DNA from: Lacinutrix sp. WUR7
Lineage (GTDB): Bacteria > Bacteroidota > Bacteroidia > Flavobacteriales > Flavobacteriaceae
Direction: 5' to 3'
Assembly (NCBI RefSeq): GCF_016864015.1
Contig: NZ_CP045067.1
Location: 3,110,001 to 3,174,000 of the forward strand
DNA length: 64,000 nucleotides
Position 1 is the stretch's first letter, and each line of letters opens with the position of its first letter. Below the pieces are notes generated by a model, which was given only the letters and a program-made list of their open reading frames with translations, was not told the origin of the DNA and ran no database searches. Made by a program: the position numbers and the translations under genes. This document shows, in pieces, positions 12,927 through 23,212 of the stretch.

Positions 12927-12996
12927 ACTATCATTTATGACCGTTATTGCGAGGTTTTAATACTATACTTACTTTTGTCACTATAAAAATGATAGT
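12927..12996 (+). promoter_or_regulatory. Promoter of first nitroreductase unit with HxlR-type operator
   Basis: Housekeeping-type promoter: TTG at 12947-12949, 20 bases, TACTTTTG at 12970-12977. The near-palindrome ACTATA-AAAAT-GATAGT lies at 12980-12996, over the expected start site. Further half-sites are at 12927 (ACTATC) and 12962 (ACTATA). The same elements at the same distances recur at 16953-17022. The 257-base gap before the nitroreductase holds nothing else that I can support. Confidence 0.7.
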
Positions 12997-13017
12997 TAAT
13001 TAAAAAAACATATAAAA

Positions 13018-13683
13018 ATGAATTTACACGACACATTAAACTGGAGATACACTACAAAGGAATACGACACAACCAAAAAAATCTCTGATGCAGATATGGG
13101 GGAAGTCAAAAATTTATTAAGAATGAGTCCTTCAAGTATTAACCTGCAACCTTGGCATTTTATTATTGCTGAAACTACAGAGGGAAAAGCGCGTATGACA
13201 AAAGGAACTCAAGGCTTCTTTCATTTTAATGAACCAAAAATAACGAATGCATCAGCTGTAGTATTATTTTGTTCAAAAACTAGTGAAGGTGCAGATGATA
13301 TTTTTTATAAACACCTTTTAGAAGTACAGGATAAAGACGGAAGATTCCCTAATGAAGACATAAAGAACGGAATGTACGGAGGGATGAACGCTTTTGGAGA
13401 CATTCATAAATATGATTTAAAAGACTATCAACATTGGATGGAAAAGCAGGTATATCTTAACATTGGAAACTTTTTGTTAGGAGTTGCAAGTTTAGGTATC
13501 GATGCAACACCAATGGAAGGTATTGATGTAAAAGCGTTAGATGAAGAATTCGGATTAAGAGCAAAAGGATTCACATCTTTAGTAGTTGTTTCTTTAGGCT
13601 ATAGAGCTGCATCGGATTTTAATTCAACGGACAAAACTCCAAAATCTAGATTACCACAAAGTGAAATTATCACTGTAATATAA
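13018..13683 (+). CDS. NfsB-type nitroreductase, paralogue 1
   Basis: A 221-residue FMN-dependent nitroreductase-family enzyme. The N-terminal RYTTKEYD, SPSSINLQPWHFI (FMN phosphate-binding Ser/Asn region), the GIDATPMEGID segment and the closing FTSLVVVSLGYR are typical of oxygen-insensitive NAD(P)H nitroreductases that reduce nitroaromatics and quinones. It is clearly paralogous to the gene at 17049, sharing most motifs almost word for word. It begins a unit with the MDR-type reductase 20 bases downstream and is probably controlled by the HxlR regulator at 16440. Confidence 0.9.
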   Translation: MNLHDTLNWRYTTKEYDTTKKISDADMGEVKNLLRMSPSSINLQPWHFIIAETTEGKARMTKGTQGFFHFNEPKITNASAVVLFCSKTSEGADDIFYKHLLEVQDKDGRFPNEDIKNGMYGGMNAFGDIHKYDLKDYQHWMEKQVYLNIGNFLLGVASLGIDATPMEGIDVKALDEEFGLRAKGFTSLVVVSLGYRAASDFNSTDKTPKSRLPQSEIITVI

Positions 13684-13703
13684 TTGCAAAAAATTTAATT
13701 CAG

Positions 13704-14711
13704 ATGAAAGCAATAGGATACAAAGAGAATTTACCAATAGACAATGTAAATTCGCTACAAGACATAGAAATAAAGACTCCAAAAGCAACTGGAAGAGATA
13801 TTTTAGTGGAAATTAAAGCCATTTCGGTAAATCCAGCAGATTATAAAGTACGTGCAAATATGCCTGTACAGGGTGACGATTGGAAAATTATAGGTTGGGA
13901 TGCAACCGGAATTGTAAAGCAAGTTGGAGAAGATGTTACTTTATTTAATGTTGGTGATGAAGTTTGGTACGCTGGCGATTTTACACGTCAGGGTAGTTAT
14001 GCGCAATTTCAGGTGGTAGATGAACGTATTATAGGTAAAAAACCAACAAGTTTATCCTATGCGGAAGCTGCGGCGTTACCATTAACAACACTTACTGCTT
14101 ATGAAATGTTGTTTGATAGATTAGAGGTTTCTAAAGACGATGCCAATAAATCCATTTTAATAATAGGTGCAGCAGGAGGCGTTGGTTCTATAATGGTGCA
14201 ATTAGCTAAAAAGTTAACAAAACTGAACATTATTGCTACTGCTTCTCGCGAAGAAACTACCGATTGGTTAAAAGAATTAGGTGCAGATACGGTTATCAAC
14301 CATAGAAATAAATTGAGTGAAGAGTTTGAAAAATATAGCCTTCCAGCGCCAGAATATGTTGTGAGTTTAAATGCTACAGAACAACATGTAGATGAAATTG
14401 TAAAGCTGATTAAACCGCAAGGGAAATTCGGCTTTATTGATGATCCAAAAGTAATGAATGTGATGCCTTTTAAAGGAAAAGCAGTGTCTACACACATCGA
14501 GTTAATGTTTACGCGTGCTATGTTTCAAACAGAAGATATGATTGAGCAACATAACATTTTAAATAAGGCTTCTGAGCTAATAGATAACGGGACAATTAAA
14601 ACCACTTTAGGCGAAAACTTCGGAACTATTAATGCGGAAAACCTGCGTAAAGCACACGCTTTTTTAGAAACAGGAAAAGCAAAAGGTAAAATAGTTTTAG
14701 AAGGATTTTAG
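13704..14711 (+). CDS. MDR-family zinc-less reductase (quinone-reductase/ZADH type)
   Basis: A 335-residue medium-chain reductase: the N-terminal GroES-like part has VEIKAISVNPADYKVRANMP and GWDATGIV, and the Rossmann part has IIGAAGGVGSIMVQLAKK for NAD(P)H. The cysteine cluster for structural zinc and the catalytic zinc ligands of true alcohol dehydrogenases are not seen, so an NADPH:quinone or enone reductase is likelier than an alcohol dehydrogenase. It lies 20 bases after nitroreductase 1 and before a pair of palindromic repeats. Substrate unknown. Confidence 0.85.
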   Translation: MKAIGYKENLPIDNVNSLQDIEIKTPKATGRDILVEIKAISVNPADYKVRANMPVQGDDWKIIGWDATGIVKQVGEDVTLFNVGDEVWYAGDFTRQGSYAQFQVVDERIIGKKPTSLSYAEAAALPLTTLTAYEMLFDRLEVSKDDANKSILIIGAAGGVGSIMVQLAKKLTKLNIIATASREETTDWLKELGADTVINHRNKLSEEFEKYSLPAPEYVVSLNATEQHVDEIVKLIKPQGKFGFIDDPKVMNVMPFKGKAVSTHIELMFTRAMFQTEDMIEQHNILNKASELIDNGTIKTTLGENFGTINAENLRKAHAFLETGKAKGKIVLEGF

Positions 14712-14738
14712 TCTCAATGAGATAAATAATAATGTTAC

Positions 14739-14851
14739 GTCACTTCGAGTGATTTTATTGGAATAGAATGAAAATAAAAATGTATCGAGAAGCACAGCAA
14801 TAAGATTGGTTCTCGATACAAAATTCTAAAAAGAATTTCACTCGAACTGAC
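14739..14851. repeat. Palindromic intergenic repeat, copy 1
   Basis: A 113-bp element bounded by GTCACTTCGAGTG and CACTCGAACTGAC, inverted ends differing at one base. Inside it, TGTATCGAGAA is mirrored by TTCTCGATACA. The transcript would fold into a long hairpin. No coding frame. The design resembles REP/MITE-like elements seen between flavobacterial genes. Confidence 0.8.
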
Positions 14852-14880
14852 AAATTAACTATTAATCAATATATAAGAAT

Positions 14881-14994
14881 GTCACTTCGAGTGTTTTTAT
14901 TGAAATAAAATGGAAATAAAAATGTATCGAGAACTTAGGAATACGGTTGTTTTTCAATATTAACAACTTTAGAATTAGTTTCACTCGAACTGAC
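14881..14994. repeat. Palindromic intergenic repeat, copy 2
   Basis: A second 114-bp copy in direct orientation 29 bases after copy 1. It has the same outer ends and the same GAAATAAAA/AATGTATCGAGAA left half. The right inner arm has drifted, so its inner hairpin is weaker. Together the two copies fill almost all of the 302-base gap before the cupin gene; no promoter was recognised there. Confidence 0.8.
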
Positions 14995-15013
14995 GAAATA
15001 TATAAATAGAAAA

Positions 15014-15490
15014 ATGAATTTCAAATCAATTATAGCAGCACTAGCTGTAACAGTACTATTTGCCAGTAACACAGCAAATGCACAAGTAAATACGATAGAT
15101 TCTATAGCCACTTCAAAAGTGCAACATTTCAATTTTGATAAAATGGAATCAGAAACTATTGGAGAAGGAATTAAACGTAAATGGTTCCATGGTGAAAAAG
15201 GTCAAATGACAATTTTTAATTTAGAAAAAGGAGCGCATATTCCTTGGCACAAACACCCAAACGAGCAGATAACATACATAATGTCTGGTAAGGTTAAAAT
15301 CAAGACTATTATTGATGGTAAAGAGGAATTTGTAGAAGTTGGAGCAGGAGAAGTGATTGTTTTTCCTGAAAATGTACCTCACGAATTTTGGGCATTAGAA
15401 GAAACTGTAGATTTGGATGTGCATGTTCCTGTTCGTGAAGATTGGTTGTCTAAAGAGCTTCCGGATTACTTGAAGAAGAGCAAAAAATAA
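15014..15490 (+). CDS. Exported cupin protein
   Basis: A 158-residue protein with a Sec signal peptide ending ANAQ (about residue 24) and one cupin barrel. Motif 1 is HIPWHKHPNEQITYIMSGKVKI (His, His and Glu metal ligands); motif 2 is VIVFPENVPHEFWA (His ligand). The C-terminal VHVPVREDWL is typical of small cupins that act on or near quinones and other ring compounds, but no specific reaction can be assigned. It lies between the MDR reductase and the SDR enzyme, with a terminator after it. Confidence 0.85.
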   Translation: MNFKSIIAALAVTVLFASNTANAQVNTIDSIATSKVQHFNFDKMESETIGEGIKRKWFHGEKGQMTIFNLEKGAHIPWHKHPNEQITYIMSGKVKIKTIIDGKEEFVEVGAGEVIVFPENVPHEFWALEETVDLDVHVPVREDWLSKELPDYLKKSKK

Positions 15491-15528
15491 TTAATTGATA
15501 ATCCCTAATTATTGATTAATAATAGAAG

Positions 15529-15553
15529 AAGCCACAATATACAGTGGCTTTTT
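15529..15553 (+). terminator. Rho-independent terminator after the cupin gene
   Basis: AAGCCAC and GTGGCTT form a 7-bp stem around an 8-base loop, followed by T residues. Confidence 0.75.
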
Positions 15554-15579
15554 CTGCTTTAAGCTGAAAATAATACAAT

Positions 15580-16386
15580 ATGAGTAAAACAATAATAATC
15601 ACAGGAAGCACAGACGGAATAGGAAAGTTAACCGCTTTAAAACTTGCGCAAGATGGACATACTGTTTACGTTCACGGTAGAAGTGAAGCTAAAGTAAACA
15701 ATGTTGTTGCCGAAATTAAAGAAGCTTCCAATAACCAAAAGATTAAAGGTTTGGTTGCTGATTTTTCAGATTTAAAAGCTGTTAAAAAATTAGCAGAACA
15801 GATTAAAAACGACATTCCGAAAATAGATATTTTAATAAACAATGCAGGTATTTTTAAATCAGAAAGCACATTAACTAAAGACGGTTTAGATTTTAGAATG
15901 GTTGTAAATTATTTAGCACCTTATCTGTTAACAAATGCTATTCTTTCAAATATTGAAAATGCTGATTCCCCAAGAATTATTAATTTAAGTTCTGCTGCAC
16001 AAGCACCAGTTTCAGAAGCTGTTTTAAGAGGAAAAGAGCAAGTTTCAGAAAACGATAGTTATGCGCAAAGCAAGTTGGCATTAACCATGTGGAGTTTTAA
16101 TTTAGCGAAACAAGAACCAAAAATTGCCGTTATAGCTGTAAATCCGGGCTCGTTATTAAATACAAAAATGGCAAAAGAAGCTTTTGGAGATTATTGGTCT
16201 CCGGCAGAAAAAGGTGTGGATATTTTGTATGATTTAGTGACTTCTGAAGCATATAAAAACGATATAGGGAAGTATTTTGATAATGATAAAGGAAATCCAA
16301 AAGGTCATTTTTCATCAGCGCATCCAGGTGCTTATGATAAATTGAAGATTGAAAACTTATTACAACAAACGGATAGTTTATTGTAA
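15580..16386 (+). CDS. Short-chain dehydrogenase/reductase
   Basis: A 268-residue classical SDR: TGSTDGIG (cofactor glycine motif, about residues 7-14), a following HGR suggesting NADP preference, NNAG at about 87-90, LSSAAQ (catalytic Ser), YAQSK (catalytic Tyr and Lys) and AVNPGSLLNTKM. This arrangement resembles retinol-dehydrogenase-like and WW-domain-oxidoreductase-like SDRs that reduce carbonyls. It sits just before the convergent HxlR gene and shares a bidirectional hairpin with it. Confidence 0.9.
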   Translation: MSKTIIITGSTDGIGKLTALKLAQDGHTVYVHGRSEAKVNNVVAEIKEASNNQKIKGLVADFSDLKAVKKLAEQIKNDIPKIDILINNAGIFKSESTLTKDGLDFRMVVNYLAPYLLTNAILSNIENADSPRIINLSSAAQAPVSEAVLRGKEQVSENDSYAQSKLALTMWSFNLAKQEPKIAVIAVNPGSLLNTKMAKEAFGDYWSPAEKGVDILYDLVTSEAYKNDIGKYFDNDKGNPKGHFSSAHPGAYDKLKIENLLQQTDSLL

Positions 16387-16406
16387 ACGCTTCATTTTTA
16401 AAACAT

Positions 16407-16435
16407 AATAAGACTACCTAATAGGTCGCCTTATT
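16407..16435. terminator. Hairpin between the SDR gene and hxlR
   Basis: AATAAG...ACCTA/TAGGT...CTTATT form an interrupted stem between convergent genes, flanked by A/T on both sides, so it could end transcripts from either strand. Confidence 0.6.
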
Positions 16436-16439
16436 TATT

Positions 16440-16829
16440 TTACTCTACCTCATTAAACAAAAACTCGCCTTTTGTTTCAGCTGCATGCAAACCCCATTCT
16501 ACAATAAGGGTTAGAATAGGAGTAAGGGTTTCACCAAATTCGGTAAGTCTGTATTCTACTTTTAAAGGTGGTTTTTTAGTAAACACTTTTCTGCTTACCA
16601 TACCATCGGCTTCTAATTGCTTTAGCTGTAAACTTAGTGTACGCTCTGTAATACCAGGAATTTCCTTTCGTAATTCGTTATACCGTTTTTTGCCACCAAT
16701 TAAATGGGTTAGAATTACACTTTTCCATTTACCACCAATCAATTCCATAGCAGCACTGGTTGGACAAAACGATATTTTATCGTTGATTTTAATCTTTGGT
16801 TTTTTTTCAAACAGTTCTTTTCTGTCCAT
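16440..16829 (-). CDS. HxlR-family redox/electrophile-responsive regulator
   Basis: A 129-residue winged-helix protein of the HxlR (DUF24) family: FCPTSAAMELIGGKWKSVILTHLIGGKKRYNELRK, then GITERTLSLQLKQLEADGMV (recognition helix region) and EYRLTEFG (wing). Cys22 in FCPTS corresponds to the conserved cysteine by which YodB/HypR-type members sense quinones, diamide or other thiol-reactive compounds. The ATG at 16829 is preferred to an upstream TTG because it starts 22 bases after the recognised -7 box. It lies convergent to the SDR gene and divergent from the large nitroreductase operon, and is likely autoregulated. Confidence 0.9.
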   Translation of the reverse strand: MDRKELFEKKPKIKINDKISFCPTSAAMELIGGKWKSVILTHLIGGKKRYNELRKEIPGITERTLSLQLKQLEADGMVSRKVFTKKPPLKVEYRLTEFGETLTPILTLIVEWGLHAAETKGEFLFNEVE

Positions 16830-16850
16830 TTCTATTGTAGTTTTATTTTG

Positions 16851-16897
16851 CAAAGGTAGTGTGCTTTAATTTAGTGTGCAACTATACTTTTTATAGT
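16851..16897 (-). promoter_or_regulatory. hxlR promoter with perfect 6-5-6 palindromic operator
   Basis: Reading the minus strand: TTG at 16881-16879, 20 bases, TACCTTTG at 16858-16851. The perfect inverted repeat ACTATA-CTTTT-TATAGT at 16881-16897 touches the -33 element. It has the same half-sites and spacing as the two nitroreductase operators. Confidence 0.7.
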
Positions 16898-16952
16898 AAA
16901 TAAATTTTATTGTATATAACAGTATAACAATGTATTATATGTTAAAATTGAT

Positions 16953-17022
16953 ACTATACTTCATGACCGTTATTGCATAATAATTAAACTATAATTACTT
17001 TTGTCACTATAATTTTGATAGT
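16953..17022 (+). promoter_or_regulatory. Promoter of second nitroreductase operon with HxlR-type operator
   Basis: TTG at 16973-16975, 20 bases, TACTTTTG at 16996-17003, then ACTATA-ATTTT-GATAGT at 17006-17022. Extra ACTATA half-sites lie at 16953 and 16988. The 14-mer ATGACCGTTATTGC at 16963-16976 is identical to 12937-12950 in the other promoter. Confidence 0.7.
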
Positions 17023-17048: not shown

Positions 17049-17702
17049 ATGAATTTAAATGAAATATTAAACAACCGCTACACAGTTAAAGAATTTGATC
17101 CTACTAAAAAAGTATCTAATGACGATTTTGAACAAATCAAATCTTTATTACGTTTAAGTCCATCAAGTATAAACTTACAGCCTTGGCATTTTATAGTTGC
17201 TGATACGAAAGCAGGTAAAGAGCGTATTGCAAAAGGAACAGAAGGAACCTTTCCTTTTAATACTCCAAAGGTTTTAGATGCTTCCCATGTAATTGTGATT
17301 GCGGCTAAAACAGGAATTGACGAAAATTATATAAAAAGCATTCTAGATAAAGAAGACGAAGATGGGCGTTATGCAAAACAAGAATATAAAGATCAAGCTT
17401 ACGCAGGACGTATGATGTTTGCAAATCTGCATCGGTATGACCTTAAAGATGTACAACCTTGGATAGAAAAACAAGTATACCTTAATATGGGTTCTTTATT
17501 AACAGGTGCAGCAGTTTTAGGTATAGATGCTTGCCCAATGGAAGGTGTAGATGTAAAAGCTTTAGATAAAGAGTTTGGTTTACATAAAAAAGGATATACC
17601 GCTTTAGCTGTAGTGTCTTTAGGGTATAGAAAAGACACCGATTTCAATTCTAAACTTCCAAAATCTAGATTTTCAGTAGATACCATTATTACTAAATTAT
17701 AA
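17049..17702 (+). CDS. NfsB-type nitroreductase, paralogue 2
   Basis: A 217-residue nitroreductase-family flavoenzyme, a close paralogue of the protein at 13018: RYTVKEFD, LSPSSINLQPWHFIVAD, GIDACPMEGVDVKALDKEFGL and VVSLGYR. It is expected to reduce nitro groups or quinones by two-electron steps with NAD(P)H. First gene of a long plus-strand operon that runs to the aldehyde dehydrogenase at 27357 with mostly short gaps. Probably repressed by HxlR until an electrophile modifies the regulator. Confidence 0.9.
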   Translation: MNLNEILNNRYTVKEFDPTKKVSNDDFEQIKSLLRLSPSSINLQPWHFIVADTKAGKERIAKGTEGTFPFNTPKVLDASHVIVIAAKTGIDENYIKSILDKEDEDGRYAKQEYKDQAYAGRMMFANLHRYDLKDVQPWIEKQVYLNMGSLLTGAAVLGIDACPMEGVDVKALDKEFGLHKKGYTALAVVSLGYRKDTDFNSKLPKSRFSVDTIITKL

Positions 17703-17725: not shown

Positions 17726-18649
17726 ATGAAAAAATTCTTTAAAATAATTGGAGGTATCATCGTGAGCTTGTTAGCAATTGGTGCTATACTATTTTTCTTT
17801 TTTCCAAAAGTGTTGATAGACCAAACCAATGCAAGCTATGCTAATGCAGCAAACCTGGAAAAGAAAACGGTGGAAATAAATGGATACACCGTACATTTTT
17901 ACGAAAGCAAAGCGAATGATGATAAACCAGACTTTGTACTACTTCACGGAATGGCAGACGATAAAAGTAGCTTTTTACAAACTGCTAAATTTTTATCTAA
18001 TGAGTATCATCTAATTCTTCCTGATTTGGCTGGACACGGCGATAATGAAAGAAAACAGGGACTGGATTATTCTATAGACGGACAAGCCACTTTTCTAAAA
18101 TCGTTTTTAGAGCAACTTAACGTAACAAACTTTAACCTCATAGGTAATTCGATGGGCGGACATACAGCTGCTGCCTATGCTATAAAATACCCTAATGATG
18201 TTAAAAATTTAATCTTATTAGATGCTGCGGGTATAAAAATAGATGACCACGTTGTGTATGGTGGTTTTGGTAAAAAAATTGAAAATAAAGAAGAGTTAGA
18301 TGTTGTGCTACAACGTGTTTTTTACAAAGTACCAGACCTTCCGGGACCCATAGCGAATTATATGATGGAGACTGTGAACAGCAGTAAAGATTTTGTTGAT
18401 AACACCTTGATTCCTGCTATTACTAGAGGAAAATTCTTCAATCTTAAAGACGATGTTCAGTATATAAAAGCGCCAACATTAGTATTACAAGGGAAACACG
18501 ATGAAGTGGTACGTTTTAATGTAGCTGAATACTACAAAGACCATATTCCGAATGCAACTTTAGTAGTTATCGAAAACGCAGCACATTCACCTCAATTAGA
18601 AGTTCCTGAAGAAGTGGCAAACGATATTAAAAAGTTTATAAAATTATAA
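17726..18649 (+). CDS. Alpha/beta hydrolase, membrane-anchored
   Basis: A 307-residue protein with an N-terminal signal anchor (about 5-27) and an alpha/beta-hydrolase domain: VLLHGMADD (oxyanion HG), LPDLAGHGDNE, NLIGNSMGGHTA (nucleophile Ser in GNSMGG), a QGKHDEVV acid region and ENAAHSPQLE (catalytic His). The pattern is close to C-C bond hydrolases and epoxide-hydrolase-like lipases acting on small esters or ring-cleavage products. It probably faces the periplasm. It lies 23 bases after nitroreductase 2; substrate unknown. Confidence 0.85.
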   Translation: MKKFFKIIGGIIVSLLAIGAILFFFFPKVLIDQTNASYANAANLEKKTVEINGYTVHFYESKANDDKPDFVLLHGMADDKSSFLQTAKFLSNEYHLILPDLAGHGDNERKQGLDYSIDGQATFLKSFLEQLNVTNFNLIGNSMGGHTAAAYAIKYPNDVKNLILLDAAGIKIDDHVVYGGFGKKIENKEELDVVLQRVFYKVPDLPGPIANYMMETVNSSKDFVDNTLIPAITRGKFFNLKDDVQYIKAPTLVLQGKHDEVVRFNVAEYYKDHIPNATLVVIENAAHSPQLEVPEEVANDIKKFIKL

Positions 18650-18658
18650 AAACAGATA

Positions 18659-19510
18659 ATGATGAACACTAACACAAAAACTATTCATGCAGCTATTGTG
18701 CAATATCACCGTTGGTATCTTTTTTATGAACGTGATTTTGAAAACAAGCAACGCCTAGAAAACCAGTTAGAAATTTTAGCAGATTCTATAAAAATGAAAT
18801 CTGCAGCGGGAGAAATGCAGGGCAAAGAAAATTATCCTGAAAGATTAAAAGTCTATAAAGGCTGGAAAAATGCGCATCATATCCAAAATATTACAGTTAA
18901 CAAATTAGAGGATGGTACTATTAACCTTGAGGCTGATATTGTATATCAAAATTTAAAATCAGATGGATCTAATGATAGTTACCCTTTGCATTACAGCACG
19001 TTTTTAAAAGAAGTACCTAATGCACTATTACCAGTTTTCACAGAGATAAATATTCAACCAACGGGCGAAATTAAAAATCCTACGTTTGAAGACGCCTATC
19101 CCGAAAACAGAATGTTATCGCTCATGCATTATTGGTTGTTAAATATGGAGCAATTAGATGGTAATGTGGAACCTTTTAAAGAATTATTAGCTGAAGGTTT
19201 TAAACTTAATTTTTCAACAAATAGCGAGCCTATTGTTACCATAGAACAATTAGAAGAATGGTTAAACGGAACGCCATTACAATTAACAGAAAGCAGTCAT
19301 TCACCTGAGAACTTTTCCGTAAAAGTTATTTCAGATAATCAATATGAAGTTAACGTTGATTTTGTTTGGAATGGAAAAACAAAAGACGGACAAATAGTTA
19401 CAGCAACTACAGCACACCATTGGATTGTACAGGATACTCCTAATGACAGATTTGCAAAAATAAAAGAGGTTACCATAACCCAAAAAGTACCACTAACTCC
19501 AATAAAGTAA
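18659..19510 (+). CDS. Double NTF2/SnoaL-like protein
   Basis: 283 residues without signal peptide. The sequence reads as two NTF2-like halves: about 8-140 (AIVQYHRWYLFYERDFENKQRLENQLEIL then mixed strands) and about 155-280 (MLSLMHYWLLNMEQLDGNVEPFKELLAEGFKLNFS, then ATTAHHWIVQD and AKIKEVTITQ). SnoaL-like folds serve as small-molecule cyclases, isomerases or binding proteins. No catalytic residue can be assigned. It lies nine bases after the hydrolase. Confidence 0.65.
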   Translation: MMNTNTKTIHAAIVQYHRWYLFYERDFENKQRLENQLEILADSIKMKSAAGEMQGKENYPERLKVYKGWKNAHHIQNITVNKLEDGTINLEADIVYQNLKSDGSNDSYPLHYSTFLKEVPNALLPVFTEINIQPTGEIKNPTFEDAYPENRMLSLMHYWLLNMEQLDGNVEPFKELLAEGFKLNFSTNSEPIVTIEQLEEWLNGTPLQLTESSHSPENFSVKVISDNQYEVNVDFVWNGKTKDGQIVTATTAHHWIVQDTPNDRFAKIKEVTITQKVPLTPIK

Positions 19511-19535
19511 TTACACTCTTTATAAACACATAATT

Positions 19536-20159
19536 ATGAAAAGCACCATAGTAAAATTCACAGCAAAACCAGAACACGCAACTAGTTTTGCAGCAACCTT
19601 AAAAGAAGCACAAGCAGCGACACGAAAAGAAGCTGGTAATAAAGAAATTAAAGTATTTGTATCGAATACAGATGCCAATGTATTTTTTGTTTACGAACGT
19701 TGGGCAGACAAAGCTGCAATAACCTCTCACGATAACGAGTCGCACACAAAAAAGTTAATGGAAGTAGGGCAAACAGCTTTGCAAATCGCTCCAGATTTTT
19801 ATTTTTTAGGGGATACCAATCCTTTACCAGATCGTTCTAAATCTCCAAATGCTGAAGATGAATTATTCATTATTTTCTTCATATTTAAGTTGAAGTCGGG
19901 TTATAAAAAACAAGTTTTAGCACAGTTTGAAGATCATGTTACCAACACAAGAAAAGAGGAGCAAGGAAACATTCTTTTTGATTTATACACGGTAGACGAC
20001 CAAGAAGATACTTTGGCGGTTTATGAACATTGGAGAACAGCATCAGATGTTTGGGACATTCATTTTTATCAACCATATGCAATGAAAACAGGTAAATTGT
20101 TGGAAGAAGCTGTAGAGGGAGATTTAAAACAGTATATGAATTTTGTAACAGAAATTTAA
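19536..20159 (+). CDS. Tandem ABM-domain monooxygenase-like protein
   Basis: A 207-residue protein with two antibiotic-biosynthesis-monooxygenase (ABM) units. The first (about 3-90) has KFTAKPEHATSFAATL, KVFVSNTDANVFFVYERW and DNESHTKKL. The second (about 105-205) has IFKLKSGYKKQVLAQFEDH, NILFDLYTVDDQEDTLAVYEHW and HFYQPY. ABM proteins are cofactor-free quinol or anthrone monooxygenases, or heme-degrading and related enzymes. The quinol-oxygenase type would fit an operon of quinone reductases. Both units keep the strand-ending YE.W/YEHW motif. Confidence 0.8.
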   Translation: MKSTIVKFTAKPEHATSFAATLKEAQAATRKEAGNKEIKVFVSNTDANVFFVYERWADKAAITSHDNESHTKKLMEVGQTALQIAPDFYFLGDTNPLPDRSKSPNAEDELFIIFFIFKLKSGYKKQVLAQFEDHVTNTRKEEQGNILFDLYTVDDQEDTLAVYEHWRTASDVWDIHFYQPYAMKTGKLLEEAVEGDLKQYMNFVTEI

Positions 20160-20171
20160 AAATTTTTTAAA

Positions 20172-21074
20172 ATGAAAAATATAATTACAGCACTAGTTTA
20201 CGGAATTATCGTTGCAGTTGGTATTCAGGAAATTTCTTCTCAAGAACCAAGTATGAGAACTTTTAATGAAAACACAAAAGCAGTACAATTAGATAAGGGT
20301 ACGATGCAAATTTTTGATTACGGTCAAACTAAAGTTCACGTTTACGAAACCAAAGGGTTTTTTAATACACACGCTTTTTTTATTGAAAAAAACGGAAAAG
20401 GAGTATTGATTGAAACACCACCTATGAAAGATAATTACAAGGAACTTGTAAATTATATTGTTGATATAGGTTACACAAATATTGATGTGATGGTTTCTTA
20501 TCATTTAATAGGTAAGCACTTTTTTGATACGGACAAACTAAAATTCAACCATATATATTCTAATCAAGAATCTTTAGATTATATGACGAATTCTGGTAAT
20601 GAATCGCTCTCAAAATTAGCAGAAGTTTCAAGTGAAGATCTAGACGAAACTACAATAGTACCAACCGATTTGCTAGAAGCAGGAGCACAAGAAATTTCAG
20701 GAATTCCTTTTATTATTACGCCAACTGGTTTTGGTTTTGATGTAGAAATGCCAGAAATAAAGGCGGTCCACTTGCATATGGTTGGGCACGATAACCATAC
20801 TATGATTTTTAATTCTGAATTTATAGACACCGTAATTAACGAGCTTTCCGCTTTTCAAGAAAAAGGGTATGCGACCTATTTTTCTTCACACAGTGCACCC
20901 GAAACTTCGGGAGATGTGACCGTTAAAATCAACTATCTTAAAGAGATGAAAGCTATTCTTTCAGCTTCTAAAAATAGCGAAGAATTTATTCAGAAAATGG
21001 ATAAAGCCTATCCTAATTTTGGTTGGAGAAATTACTTATTAGGAAGTGCAAATATGTTGTTTACTGAAAACTAA
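20172..21074 (+). CDS. Exported metallo-beta-lactamase-fold-like protein
   Basis: A 300-residue protein with an N-terminal signal (ends SSQ, about residue 24). The opening (QTKVHVYETKGFFNTHAFFIEKNGKGVLIETPP) and the helix after it look like the first half of an MBL fold. The usual HxHxDH is degenerate (YHLIGKHFFD), but later His residues (HMVGHDNHTMIF, SSHSAPE) remain. It may be a divergent MBL hydrolase with altered metal binding, or a fold relative that lost activity. It lies 12 bases after the ABM protein. Confidence 0.65.
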   Translation: MKNIITALVYGIIVAVGIQEISSQEPSMRTFNENTKAVQLDKGTMQIFDYGQTKVHVYETKGFFNTHAFFIEKNGKGVLIETPPMKDNYKELVNYIVDIGYTNIDVMVSYHLIGKHFFDTDKLKFNHIYSNQESLDYMTNSGNESLSKLAEVSSEDLDETTIVPTDLLEAGAQEISGIPFIITPTGFGFDVEMPEIKAVHLHMVGHDNHTMIFNSEFIDTVINELSAFQEKGYATYFSSHSAPETSGDVTVKINYLKEMKAILSASKNSEEFIQKMDKAYPNFGWRNYLLGSANMLFTEN

Positions 21075-21102
21075 TTCAGTTGAACAAAAAAAATCAACCA
21101 TT

Positions 21103-21957
21103 ATGAAAAAACTAATACTATTATTTTCTTTAGCGCTTTTCGCTAGCTGCGGAAATGAGACTAAAAAAGAAGCAATGTCAACTTCGGAAGAAGCACACGG
21201 ACATTCACATTCTGAAGGTGCGGACGAACACGGTTTGGCACCTCATACCGAAAATACCATTCATCAATATGCACCAACGGTTGCCTTATTAAATAGTATT
21301 TATGAAGGTGATATTACCCCGCAACAAATGGTACAGCAAGGTAACATTGGTATTGGAACCGTAAATCATTTGGCTGGCGAATTGGTTGCTGTAGATGGAG
21401 TGGTTTATACGATTGATGCCGAAGGCGGAATCGCAGAAGCACCAGACGATTTAGAATCTCCGAATATGACGATGATAAATTTTCAACCGAAACAAACCGT
21501 AACTGTTGAAAATATTGAGTCTTATGAAGACTTAACTAGAGAGCTTCAAAAATATTCAACCTCTAAAAATAGCTTTTACGCATATAGAATTAAGGGTGAA
21601 TTTAAGCACTTAAAAATGGCTTCAGCGCACAAGGTAGAGAACGAAGATGTGTCTTTATTTGAATATTTAGACACACGTGTTATGTACACTAGAGACAACA
21701 TTAAAGGGACTTTGGTTGGTTTATTTACACCAGATTATCTAGGAAACATCGTAATTCCTGGAATGCATTTTCACTTTTTATCAGATGATATAAAATTGGG
21801 CGGACATTTAGAAGACATCAAATTTGATAAGCTTTCTATTGAAATTCAAGAAGTAAACCAAGTGAATTTACAACTTCCAGAAACTGAAAAATTCAGAAAT
21901 AAAGATTTAAAACAAGGTGCAGCACCAAAGGCTACAGCAAAACAAAATGGTAAATAA
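21103..21957 (+). CDS. budA: Acetolactate decarboxylase, predicted lipoprotein
   Basis: A 284-residue protein starting at ATG 21103, chosen because it gives a lipobox signal (LFASC). The mature part is an alpha-acetolactate decarboxylase: GNIGIGTVNHLAGELVAVDGVVY, the central MINFQPKQTV block and GMHFHFLSDDIKLGGHL, whose His 222, 224 and 235 are the zinc ligands of the family. The enzyme turns acetolactate into acetoin and is normally cytosolic; a lipid-anchored form in an electrophile operon is unusual. It has a His-rich linker after the lipid anchor (HGHSHSEGADEHG). It follows the MBL-like gene after 28 bases. Confidence 0.85.
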   Translation: MKKLILLFSLALFASCGNETKKEAMSTSEEAHGHSHSEGADEHGLAPHTENTIHQYAPTVALLNSIYEGDITPQQMVQQGNIGIGTVNHLAGELVAVDGVVYTIDAEGGIAEAPDDLESPNMTMINFQPKQTVTVENIESYEDLTRELQKYSTSKNSFYAYRIKGEFKHLKMASAHKVENEDVSLFEYLDTRVMYTRDNIKGTLVGLFTPDYLGNIVIPGMHFHFLSDDIKLGGHLEDIKFDKLSIEIQEVNQVNLQLPETEKFRNKDLKQGAAPKATAKQNGK

Positions 21958-21964
21958 TAATAGA

Positions 21965-23212
21965 ATGAAGAAGTACATAATTTTAGTTTTAGCATTGTCT
22001 TTCTCTTTTGCAAGCATTGCGCAAAACACAAAGGAAGATAACTATAAAACAGGCGTAAAAATTGTAAACGAGGTAAATGGCGATGGCGCTTCCAAAGGTC
22101 TGGAAGCTGCTTTTAAAAGCGTGTCTCCAGATATGGCAGATTATATTATTCGTTATGGTTTTGGAGAAATATATAGCAGACCGGGTTTAGATTTTAAGAC
22201 AAAAGAATTATTAATAATAGCTAGTCTTACTACACAAGCCAATGCAAAATCGCAATTAAAGTCGCATATGAAAGCTGCACTTAACCTTGGTGTAACCCCA
22301 GATGAGATTTCTGAAACGATGATTTTGTTAAGTCTCTATACTGGTTTTCCTGCAGCAAACAATGGGATTTTTGCTTTGAAAGAAGTTTTAGATGAAACTA
22401 ATTATGCTGCTTCTTTTAAAACAAATTCAACGAATCAATTAATTAAAAACTGGGAATTAGAGGGTTTTGCTATGCCAGAATCTATAGTAGCTTCTCCAAC
22501 TGAAGATTGGTTGTATGTTTCTAACGTAAATCAGAATGAAAAGGGATATATAAGCCGAATTACAAAAGCCGGTAAAGTAGATAATTATAAATGGGTTACA
22601 GGTTTAAATAACCCTGCTGGTTTAGCTTTATACCAAGACAATTTGTATGTAGGTGATGGTAAGGAACTTCATATAATTGATGTAAAAAAAGGTAAGCTCA
22701 TAAATAGCTTTACATCAACAGATGTGGTTTCATTAAATGATGTTGTAGTTTCTAAAACTGGACAGGTTTTTATCTCTGATATTGCAGGCGGAAAAATTTT
22801 CACCTTAGAAAATAACAAACTAGAGATTTGGTTTCAAACACCAGAAGTTAAGCATCCTAATGGTGTTTTTATTCAAGATGATAATTTGGTTATTGCCAAT
22901 TTTGGTGCCGAATTATCTTTATCCTTAACTCCTGATAAATATGGAAGTATTTATAAAGTAAACCTAAAAGATAAAACATTTTCAATGCTTAAAAGTTCTT
23001 ATCAATTAGGTGCTTTAGATGGATTAACGGCAGTTAAAGATGGTTATTTAGTAACAGGAGGTACAGTAAGTGATTTGTTTTTTATTAATAAGGATACTCG
23101 AAAAAGAATAGGAACATTTCCAAAAGGATTGGCAGATATCAGTATAGAAAATTACACATTGTATGCGCCAATTCTTTTTAGTAATAAAATTGAATCTTTT
23201 TCACTGCCATGA
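21965..23212 (+). CDS. Exported carboxymuconolactone-decarboxylase/beta-propeller fusion
   Basis: A 415-residue protein starting at ATG 21965, with a signal peptide ending SIAQ. Residues about 30-140 form a CMD domain (SRPGLDFKTKELLIIASLTTQANAKSQLKSHMKAALNLG...EI) without the CxxC of AhpD-type members, so a decarboxylase-like or structural role is likelier than peroxidase. Residues about 160-415 form an SMP-30/NHL-like six-blade propeller (LEGFAMPESIVASPTEDWLYVSNV; GLNNPAGLALYQDNLYVGD; GVFIQDDNLVIANFG). SMP-30 relatives include lactonases. CMD and lactonase-like parts in one chain suggest sequential action on lactones. It lies seven bases after budA. Confidence 0.8.
   Translation: MKKYIILVLALSFSFASIAQNTKEDNYKTGVKIVNEVNGDGASKGLEAAFKSVSPDMADYIIRYGFGEIYSRPGLDFKTKELLIIASLTTQANAKSQLKSHMKAALNLGVTPDEISETMILLSLYTGFPAANNGIFALKEVLDETNYAASFKTNSTNQLIKNWELEGFAMPESIVASPTEDWLYVSNVNQNEKGYISRITKAGKVDNYKWVTGLNNPAGLALYQDNLYVGDGKELHIIDVKKGKLINSFTSTDVVSLNDVVVSKTGQVFISDIAGGKIFTLENNKLEIWFQTPEVKHPNGVFIQDDNLVIANFGAELSLSLTPDKYGSIYKVNLKDKTFSMLKSSYQLGALDGLTAVKDGYLVTGGTVSDLFFINKDTRKRIGTFPKGLADISIENYTLYAPILFSNKIESFSLP

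Follow-up and report, generated by a model that had tools for sequence, protein, structure and literature searches.

A symmetric 17-bp dyad shared by three promoters of a 64,000-nucleotide stretch of Lacinutrix sp. WUR7 (contig NZ_CP045067.1, positions 3,110,001 to 3,174,000; hereafter the window) very likely forms the operator of HxlR, the winged-helix regulator encoded there by hxlR. At the two nitroreductase promoters among the three, the dyad is accompanied by a second element, an asymmetric and nearly invariant block that runs from -55 into the -33 element. As a whole, the observations are best explained, in our view with moderate confidence, by repression through the dyads by a one-Cys HxlR combined with a second contact of this regulator at the upstream block. 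Such an arrangement would provide a code for the operators and a guide to the regulons of a group of HxlR regulators in Bacteroidota. The original prediction, made from the letters of the window, had proposed the operators and the regulon, and this part stood; the upstream block at both nitroreductase promoters had been overlooked.

Promoter positions in the window were numbered on the scale that places TAnnTTTG at -12 to -5, a position given for Flavobacterium in a passage of PMC9723704. The elements concerned are the following:

12927..12949, + strand: upstream block ACTATC-N5-TGACCGTTATTG, -55 to -33, ending in the -33 TTG
12970..12977, + strand: -7 box TACTTTTG of the first nitroreductase promoter
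12980..12996, + strand: predicted HxlR operator ACTATA-N5-GATAGT of the first nitroreductase promoter, at -2 to +15
13018..13683, + strand: nitroreductase, PRK11053-type (NF008275, above cut-off)
16440..16829, - strand: hxlR, winged-helix regulator of the HxlR family (PF01638), 129 aa from ATG 16829, with the single Cys22
16851..16858, - strand: -7 box TACCTTTG of hxlR, with 20 bases between it and the -33 TTG
16879-16881, - strand: -33 TTG of hxlR, from the reading of the promoter
16881..16897, - strand: predicted HxlR operator of the hxlR promoter, a perfect dyad with a one-base overlap with the -33 TTG
16953..16975, + strand: upstream block ACTATA-N5-TGACCGTTATTG, -55 to -33, ending in the -33 TTG
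16996..17003, + strand: -7 box TACTTTTG of the second nitroreductase promoter
17006..17022, + strand: predicted HxlR operator ACTATA-N5-GATAGT of the second nitroreductase promoter, at -2 to +15
17049..17702, + strand: nitroreductase, PRK11053-type (NF008275, above cut-off)

All three 17-mers were found exactly at the coordinates predicted for them (12980, 16881 and 17006), and ACTATA-N5-KATAGT occurs at no further place in the window. Since the perfect dyad at 16881 matches on both strands, the three places amount to four exact matches; dinucleotide shuffles of the window gave a mean of 0.06 such matches, and none of 100 shuffles reached four. With two mismatches allowed, 29 matches were counted against 20.1 expected, a number reached by 5 of 100 shuffles; this count is near chance, and the weight therefore rests on the exact sites only. 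As predicted, the nitroreductase dyads follow the -7 boxes, starting 2 bases past each TACTTTTG, and the dyad of hxlR, which spans -51 to -35, overlaps its -33 element by one base. These positions, over the start site at the nitroreductases and overlapping the -33 element at hxlR, plausibly fit steric repression at all three promoters, and repression by the dyads is considered likely.

A scan of the whole genome (3,987,475 bp), which had been named as a check of the prediction, returned the exact pattern at six places, i.e. the three of the window and 2021221, 2696032, and 3013629. With one mismatch, the counts (44 and 41) were about those of a reversed-pattern control (43 and 37), so that weak dyad sites cannot be called. 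The three places outside the window (L004, L005, and L006) were rejected as members of the regulon and are taken as chance matches. Their 3-kb stretches contained no match to the eight query proteins of the window, and no exact TGACCGTTATTG was found near them; with one mismatch, a copy was found at a distance of 1.3 kb from 2021221, within an open reading frame (ORF). Two of the places are inside ORFs and one is between ORFs of at least 80 aa. At L006 (G000:C1:3013629, 1501-1527), a -7 box and a perfect dyad are present inside an ORF of 111 aa, remote from hxlR and with no block; this match is probably due to chance.

Scanning of public genomes with the HxlR protein yielded 74 loci. Of these, 61 (L027-L087) encode relatives with at least 61% identity, mostly from Flavobacteriaceae plus Labilibaculum-like, Chryseobacterium, and Saprospiraceae genomes, and 13 (L088-L100) encode distant relatives with 38-45% identity. 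The exact perfect dyad is present within 300 bp upstream of hxlR in 51 of the 61 related loci. In total, 55 exact sites were counted in these 18,300 bp versus 2 in the remaining 722,701 bp, and the latter two are located before a second hxlR (L035) and before an apparent hxlR remnant (L038). When the half-sites were kept fixed and spacers from 0 to 12 were tried, the 55 sites upstream of hxlR were found at spacer 5 and none at any other. In the 13 distant loci, the scanned stretch contained no dyad even with two mismatches allowed.

A search with DNA alone (-7 box, two bases, dyad) was made without the protein and thus represents an independent test of whether the dyad belongs to HxlR. It returned 47 sites in 42 of 299 genomes of the family, with none for the reversed pattern. 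Thirty loci were fetched, and each of them contains an hxlR homologue in the 3-kb stretch, adjoining a nitroreductase, alcohol dehydrogenase (ADH)-type, or short-chain dehydrogenase/reductase (SDR) gene. Three of these places (L105, L106, and L122) were also in the protein search; the 17 sites without a fetched locus include L006 in this genome, which has no hxlR next to it. Conservation in both searches strongly supports the operators and the regulon that had been proposed.

Among 92 unique target promoters, the start-site dyad was found with 0 or 1 mismatch at the ten scored positions in 90. Its twelfth base differs with the arrangement of the locus: among 32 promoters with one operator, 27 have T and 5 have G, and among 60 promoters of two-operator loci, 48 have G and 12 have T, these group sizes resulting from 28 and 64 by moving four rows by hand without rerunning the analysis. 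The four rows (L119, L123, L124, and L158) carry a false dyad CCTATA-N5-CATAGT at the hxlR coding start. Dedicated target operators thus mostly have GATAGT as right half (48/60), and both nitroreductase operators of the window likewise. In one-operator loci (L102, L103, and others), the promoters of hxlR and of the target gene overlap in head-to-head orientation. An opposite-strand hxlR-type -7 box abutting the block was observed in 17 of 28 one-operator versus 3 of 64 two-operator promoters, counted before the four false rows were moved; where a locus has two operators, the block remains at the target promoter.

The upstream block became apparent when the target promoters were compared with one another. 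In its left half and spacer, it resembles the operator (e.g. ACTATACTTTT), and its halves are 11 bp apart as in the operator; its right half is unlike that of the operator, which makes the block asymmetric. The 12-mer TGACCGTTATTG occurs exactly only twice in this genome, namely in the promoters of the 13018 and 17049 genes. Of its 14 one-mismatch copies in this genome, 12 are within ORFs, and beside the 14 no match to HxlR, nitroreductase, ADH, or SDR was found; one 23% match was to a hydrolase. With at most one mismatch, the 12-mer is present within 300 bp of hxlR in 57 of the 61 related protein-fetched loci (missing in L058, L059, L071, and L082) and at one fixed offset in all 30 loci fetched by the operator search (29 exact), which had been chosen without the block. 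Nine further copies were found elsewhere in the 74 loci. Four of them precede further hxlR-type promoters (L035, L038, L042, and L071), one exact copy is, by its position, inside the hxlR coding sequence (L074), and four one-mismatch copies are seemingly unrelated.

Searches starting from the block led back to HxlR. When half-site and 12-mer were scanned across the phylum, 14 sites were obtained in 12 of 395 genomes and none with the control; a start-site operator is present at 13 of the 14, and hxlR is in the fetched stretch at 12. The two sites without hxlR in the stretch are the window's own 13018 promoter, with hxlR about 3.4 kb away, and L160. The 12-mer followed by 17-25 free bases and a -7 box gave 49 sites in 46 of the 299 family genomes, compared to 2 in the control. 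Exactly 20 free bases separate block and -7 box in 48 of the 49 sites, the exception being in G018, whose locus was not fetched. The 30 loci fetched from these sites all contain hxlR and an operator within one mismatch, and 29 have the ACTAT half; 26 of the 30 coincide with places returned by the operator search, and the two sets therefore cannot be counted as independent. The stretch CCGTTATTG is invariant in 95 unique promoter sequences, which had been selected on the condition that the 12-mer had no more than two mismatches. To our knowledge, no binder of the block is known. Two general roles were considered for the block and thought unlikely: that of a generic -33 element, given the 51 sites for CCGTTATTG-N19-21-TANNTT in 60 genomes (own included) versus 46 for the reversed pattern, and given that of 30 loci fetched for CCGTTATTG plus -7 box, 11 were of the HxlR kind with a dyad and 19 were not; and that of a site for a widely used regulator, given the two exact 12-mers of this genome and the location of the one-mismatch copies mostly in ORFs.

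In the proposed mechanism, a dimer of the one-Cys HxlR (MarR/DUF24) would bind the 17-bp dyad at its own promoter and at those of two oxidoreductase operons. Unmodified HxlR, placed over the nitroreductase start sites (-2 to +15) and on the edge of its own -33 element, would hold transcription down. Modification of Cys22 by a quinone-like or other electrophile or by an oxidant would release HxlR, the enzymes would be made, and the compound would be removed. At the block, HxlR would occupy -55 to -39, four bases further upstream than at its own promoter (-51 to -35), and would tune or activate the target promoters from just upstream of the free -33 element. As the -33 TTG is left free there, this place would be suited to help polymerase, and the target promoters may be more than simply repressed. 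The contact of HxlR itself with the block is put forward tentatively.

An argument for this contact comes from four related loci (L057, L058, L059, and L061). Residue 61 of HxlR, presumably at the start of the recognition helix, is Thr in the window and Asn in these four, the only Asn among 99 proteins. In the same loci, the hxlR operator has TAAAGT, not TATAGT, as its right half (in L059 as judged by eye), and the left half of the block is ACTAAC or ACTGAC, not ACTAT[AC]. The complete variant blocks are ACTGAC-N5-TGTCCG, ACTAAC-N5-CATCCG (twice), and ACTAAC-N5-TGTCCG, each followed by an unchanged TTATTG. Operator, block half, and protein are thus altered together, which suggests that the block half is bound by HxlR. 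In L057, L058, and L059, the start-site dyad is gone (at least 4 mismatches in the best match; L061 has 3), and a variant block is kept, together with the -7 box and the 20 bases between them, so that the block can apparently work alone.

Several observations weigh against HxlR acting at both dyad and block. The left half of the operator is not uniform in the four Asn61 loci (ACTATA, ACTTTA, GCTTTA, and GCTATA), and their co-variation may be a single evolutionary event. The right half of the block is altered there too (TGTCCG or CATCCG), and CCGTTATTG stays constant even where the HxlR helix and the half-sites differ; the contact with HxlR is therefore argued for the left half only, and polymerase or an equally constant factor is suggested for the CCGTTATTG part. 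The distance from block to -7 box is constant while the operator offset from the -7 box shifts by one base among target promoters, which puts the block in register with polymerase and not with the operator. At L160, the block precedes an AraC-type gene, and neither an operator nor hxlR is present within 1.5 kb. One of three -7-plus-dyad matches in this genome (L006) is in an ORF distant from hxlR. Finally, relatives of known function include activators.

An extension of the two-element reading is doubtful: HxlR of Bacteroidota might use a symmetric start-site dyad for repression and the asymmetric, near-invariant ACTAT[AC]-N5-TGACCG beside the -33 element, where HxlR, perhaps in modified form, would contact sigma or poise polymerase, switching between repressor and activator by moving between the sites. 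Whether the block serves activation, repression, or both bears on the question why the HxlR family has activators as well as repressors.

Among the alternatives, the one that survives best, if still rather unlikely, sees in the block no more than a -33 region optimal for the house-keeping polymerase, retained because repressed promoters need strong polymerase binding; it is compatible with the dyads as HxlR operators. The constancy of CCGTTATTG where the HxlR half-sites change and the fixed spacing to the -7 box agree with it. An optimal -33 region is, however, hard to reconcile with the near equality of CCGTTATTG sites and control sites in the 60 genomes and with the 19 of 30 fetched loci that are not of the HxlR kind. 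The one-mismatch 12-mers, 12 of 14 in ORFs and none beside an HxlR, nitroreductase, ADH, or SDR match, speak against it as well, and the hxlR promoter has a different sequence before its TTG.

The region from -55 to -33 is a usual position of activators, and the rigid phase of the block with the -7 box (48/49 sites) invites the proposal that HxlR is mainly an activator, with a modified form at the block recruiting polymerase and the dyads serving autoregulation or fine control. We regard this as unlikely. It would suit the loci L057, L058, and L059, in which variant block, spacing, and -7 box persist without the start-site dyad, and also passages in which HxlR and RrpA, and in one passage HypR, are reported as activators (PMC7835342, PMC8765430, PMC6943732); the dyad over +1 at 12980 and 17006, kept in 90 of 92 promoters, is hard to explain without repression.

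Less likely again is a division of roles in which the dyads are repressor sites of HxlR and a different, unlinked factor binds TGACCG and activates. The asymmetry of the block, unlike a MarR-type dyad, would be accounted for in this way, as would L160 with its block before an AraC-type gene. There (G383:C2:385248, 1501-1523), the near -7 box TAACTTTA follows the block at the same 20-base spacing. Against such a factor stand the 30 of 30 loci fetched from the 49 sites in which block and -7 box came with hxlR, the match of the left half and spacer to the HxlR operator, and the 12-mer itself, which is exact only twice in this genome and thus offers no other target here. That the sites at 12980 and 17006 are a mere leftover of promoter duplication along with paralogous nitroreductase genes can practically be dismissed, since the sequence between the matching blocks is unlike and the same blocks precede ADH and SDR genes in other genera, even though both genes are of one family and their promoters match in several blocks.

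Returning to HxlR as dyad-binding repressor with a second contact at the block, the protein itself fits the family assigned. Against PF01638 it gave an E of 1.5e-30 and 105.3 bits, above the curated cut-off of 20.8, in a search with its 137-aa frame. The longest hxlR ORF begins at TTG 16853; this codon is within hxlR's own -7 box, which makes ATG 16829 the likely start. Numbered from there, the conserved Cys named in the original prediction is Cys22, kept in 98 of 99 aligned proteins. It is the only Cys of the protein, and a second Cys as in YodB is absent; this excludes a two-Cys disulfide of the YodB kind and leaves S-alkylation, a mixed disulfide, or a Cys22-Cys22' link. Cys22 is followed by Pro-Thr, and a Cys-x-Lys pair in helix 1 is absent. 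Two more HxlR-family matches were found in the genome, with no exact dyad near either; one of them (L002, G000:C1:2869962-2870129) is broken by a TGA.

By sequence, the nearest solved structure is that of HypR (YybR) of Bacillus subtilis (4a5m, E 1.5e-30). HypR operates as a two-Cys disulfide switch, unlike the window HxlR with its single Cys. The site of QsrR of Staphylococcus aureus would be GTATA-N5-TATAC; if this is right, it has a TATA-N5-TATA core in common with the window operator. In passages of PMC6943732, HypR controls the flavin disulfide reductase HypO through the sensing Cys14 and is called an inactivated repressor in one place and an oxidation-activated regulator in another. QsrR and YodB of B. 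subtilis are described in excerpts of PMC8063818 and PMC6798810 as MarR/DUF24 repressors of nitroreductases and quinone reductases with a reactive N-terminal Cys. YodB prefers TACT-N7-AGTA and, according to part of PMC8063818, forms an intersubunit Cys6-Cys101' disulfide; the window HxlR differs from it in its operator ACTATA-N5-TATAGT and its one Cys. The name-giving HxlR of B. subtilis belongs to the same Pfam family and is a formaldehyde-sensing activator that uses a Cys11-Lys13 crosslink, as a section of PMC7835342 has it; unlike its Cys-x-Lys, the window protein has Cys-Pro-Thr.

The best NCBIfam match of the window HxlR is RrpB of Campylobacter jejuni (NF047364; 77.4 bits, below the 175-bit cut-off). 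In portions of PMC8765430, RrpB is described as a one-Cys protein that represses a divergent flavin reductase gene, and the paralogues RrpA and RrpB activate mdaB and repress nfrA, respectively. Both were reported to bind inverted repeats, TATCAT separated by 19 or 24 nt and TTATAA separated by 17 nt, and protection by RrpB at the target gene itself was not observed (PMC8765430). Like RrpB, the window HxlR has one Cys and is divergent from a reductase gene, its flavin dependence being taken from the nitroreductase family; unlike these repeats, the window dyad is ACTATA-N5-KATAGT, and the portions of the RrpA/RrpB account concerned (PMC8765430) contain no TGACCGTTATTG block. Neither the dyad operator nor the block was found described in a literature search of titles and abstract openings, with most subscription papers outside it, and, among the literature matches listed for the 12-mer and its shorter and reverse forms, none was by title a paper on regulation in Bacteroidota. 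A Zobellia transcriptome study names HxlR, in a single mention seen in part of its text, among the up-regulated regulator families (PMC5613140).

Further features adjoin the two nitroreductase promoters:

12962..12967, + strand: further ACTATA half-site, located 18 bp before the operator
13704..14711, + strand: zinc-type ADH, quinone-oxidoreductase-like (TIGR02817), after a 20-base gap from the 13018 gene
16988..16993, + strand: further ACTATA half-site, located 18 bp before the operator
17726..23212, + strand: tight run of same-strand genes after 17049, from gaps and family matches

The additional half-site is exact in 55 of the 92 unique target promoters. The ADH gene at 13704 is probably co-transcribed with the 13018 nitroreductase gene, and the run after 17049 is a probable operon, both as judged from the gaps between genes. 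The run encodes an alpha/beta hydrolase, a protein without a Pfam match, a two-ABM-domain protein, a protein with a weak metallo-beta-lactamase-like match, and others.

A helical phase relation of the block to the hxlR operator was also considered and is not relied on. Counted from operator start to TGACCG, 63 two-operator loci show distances of 81-84 (40 loci), 92-97 (21), 72 (1), or 111 (1), with none at 85-91; three of 66 rows (L181, L185, and L186) were left out of these distances, their upstream dyad being taken as the false CCTATA-N5-CATAGT. In a jitter control with a period of 10.5 and 5000 sets each, the observed phasing was reached 0 times for 46 loci, 98 times for 13 loci, and 698 times for 5 loci, false rows included. 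The fewest changes on the tree amount to 12, with the three false rows included. The phasing is regarded as weak.

At L038, the locus is apparently present twice, at about 300 bases upstream of hxlR and near -3015. The first copy holds an intact hxlR and an intact hxlR operator beside a broken-looking nitroreductase gene with a decayed operator, as judged by eye, a contrast that counts in favour of the proposed mechanism; the second holds an intact nitroreductase gene beside a short hxlR-like remnant. Elsewhere in the window, 14739-15000 contains two copies of an intergenic repeat of about 115 bases with inverted ends (GTCACTTCGAGTG ... CACTCGAACTGAC). A 16-mer of this repeat occurs 12 times in the genome and not at all in the control, and four of the copies are about 170 bases apart near 124 kb.

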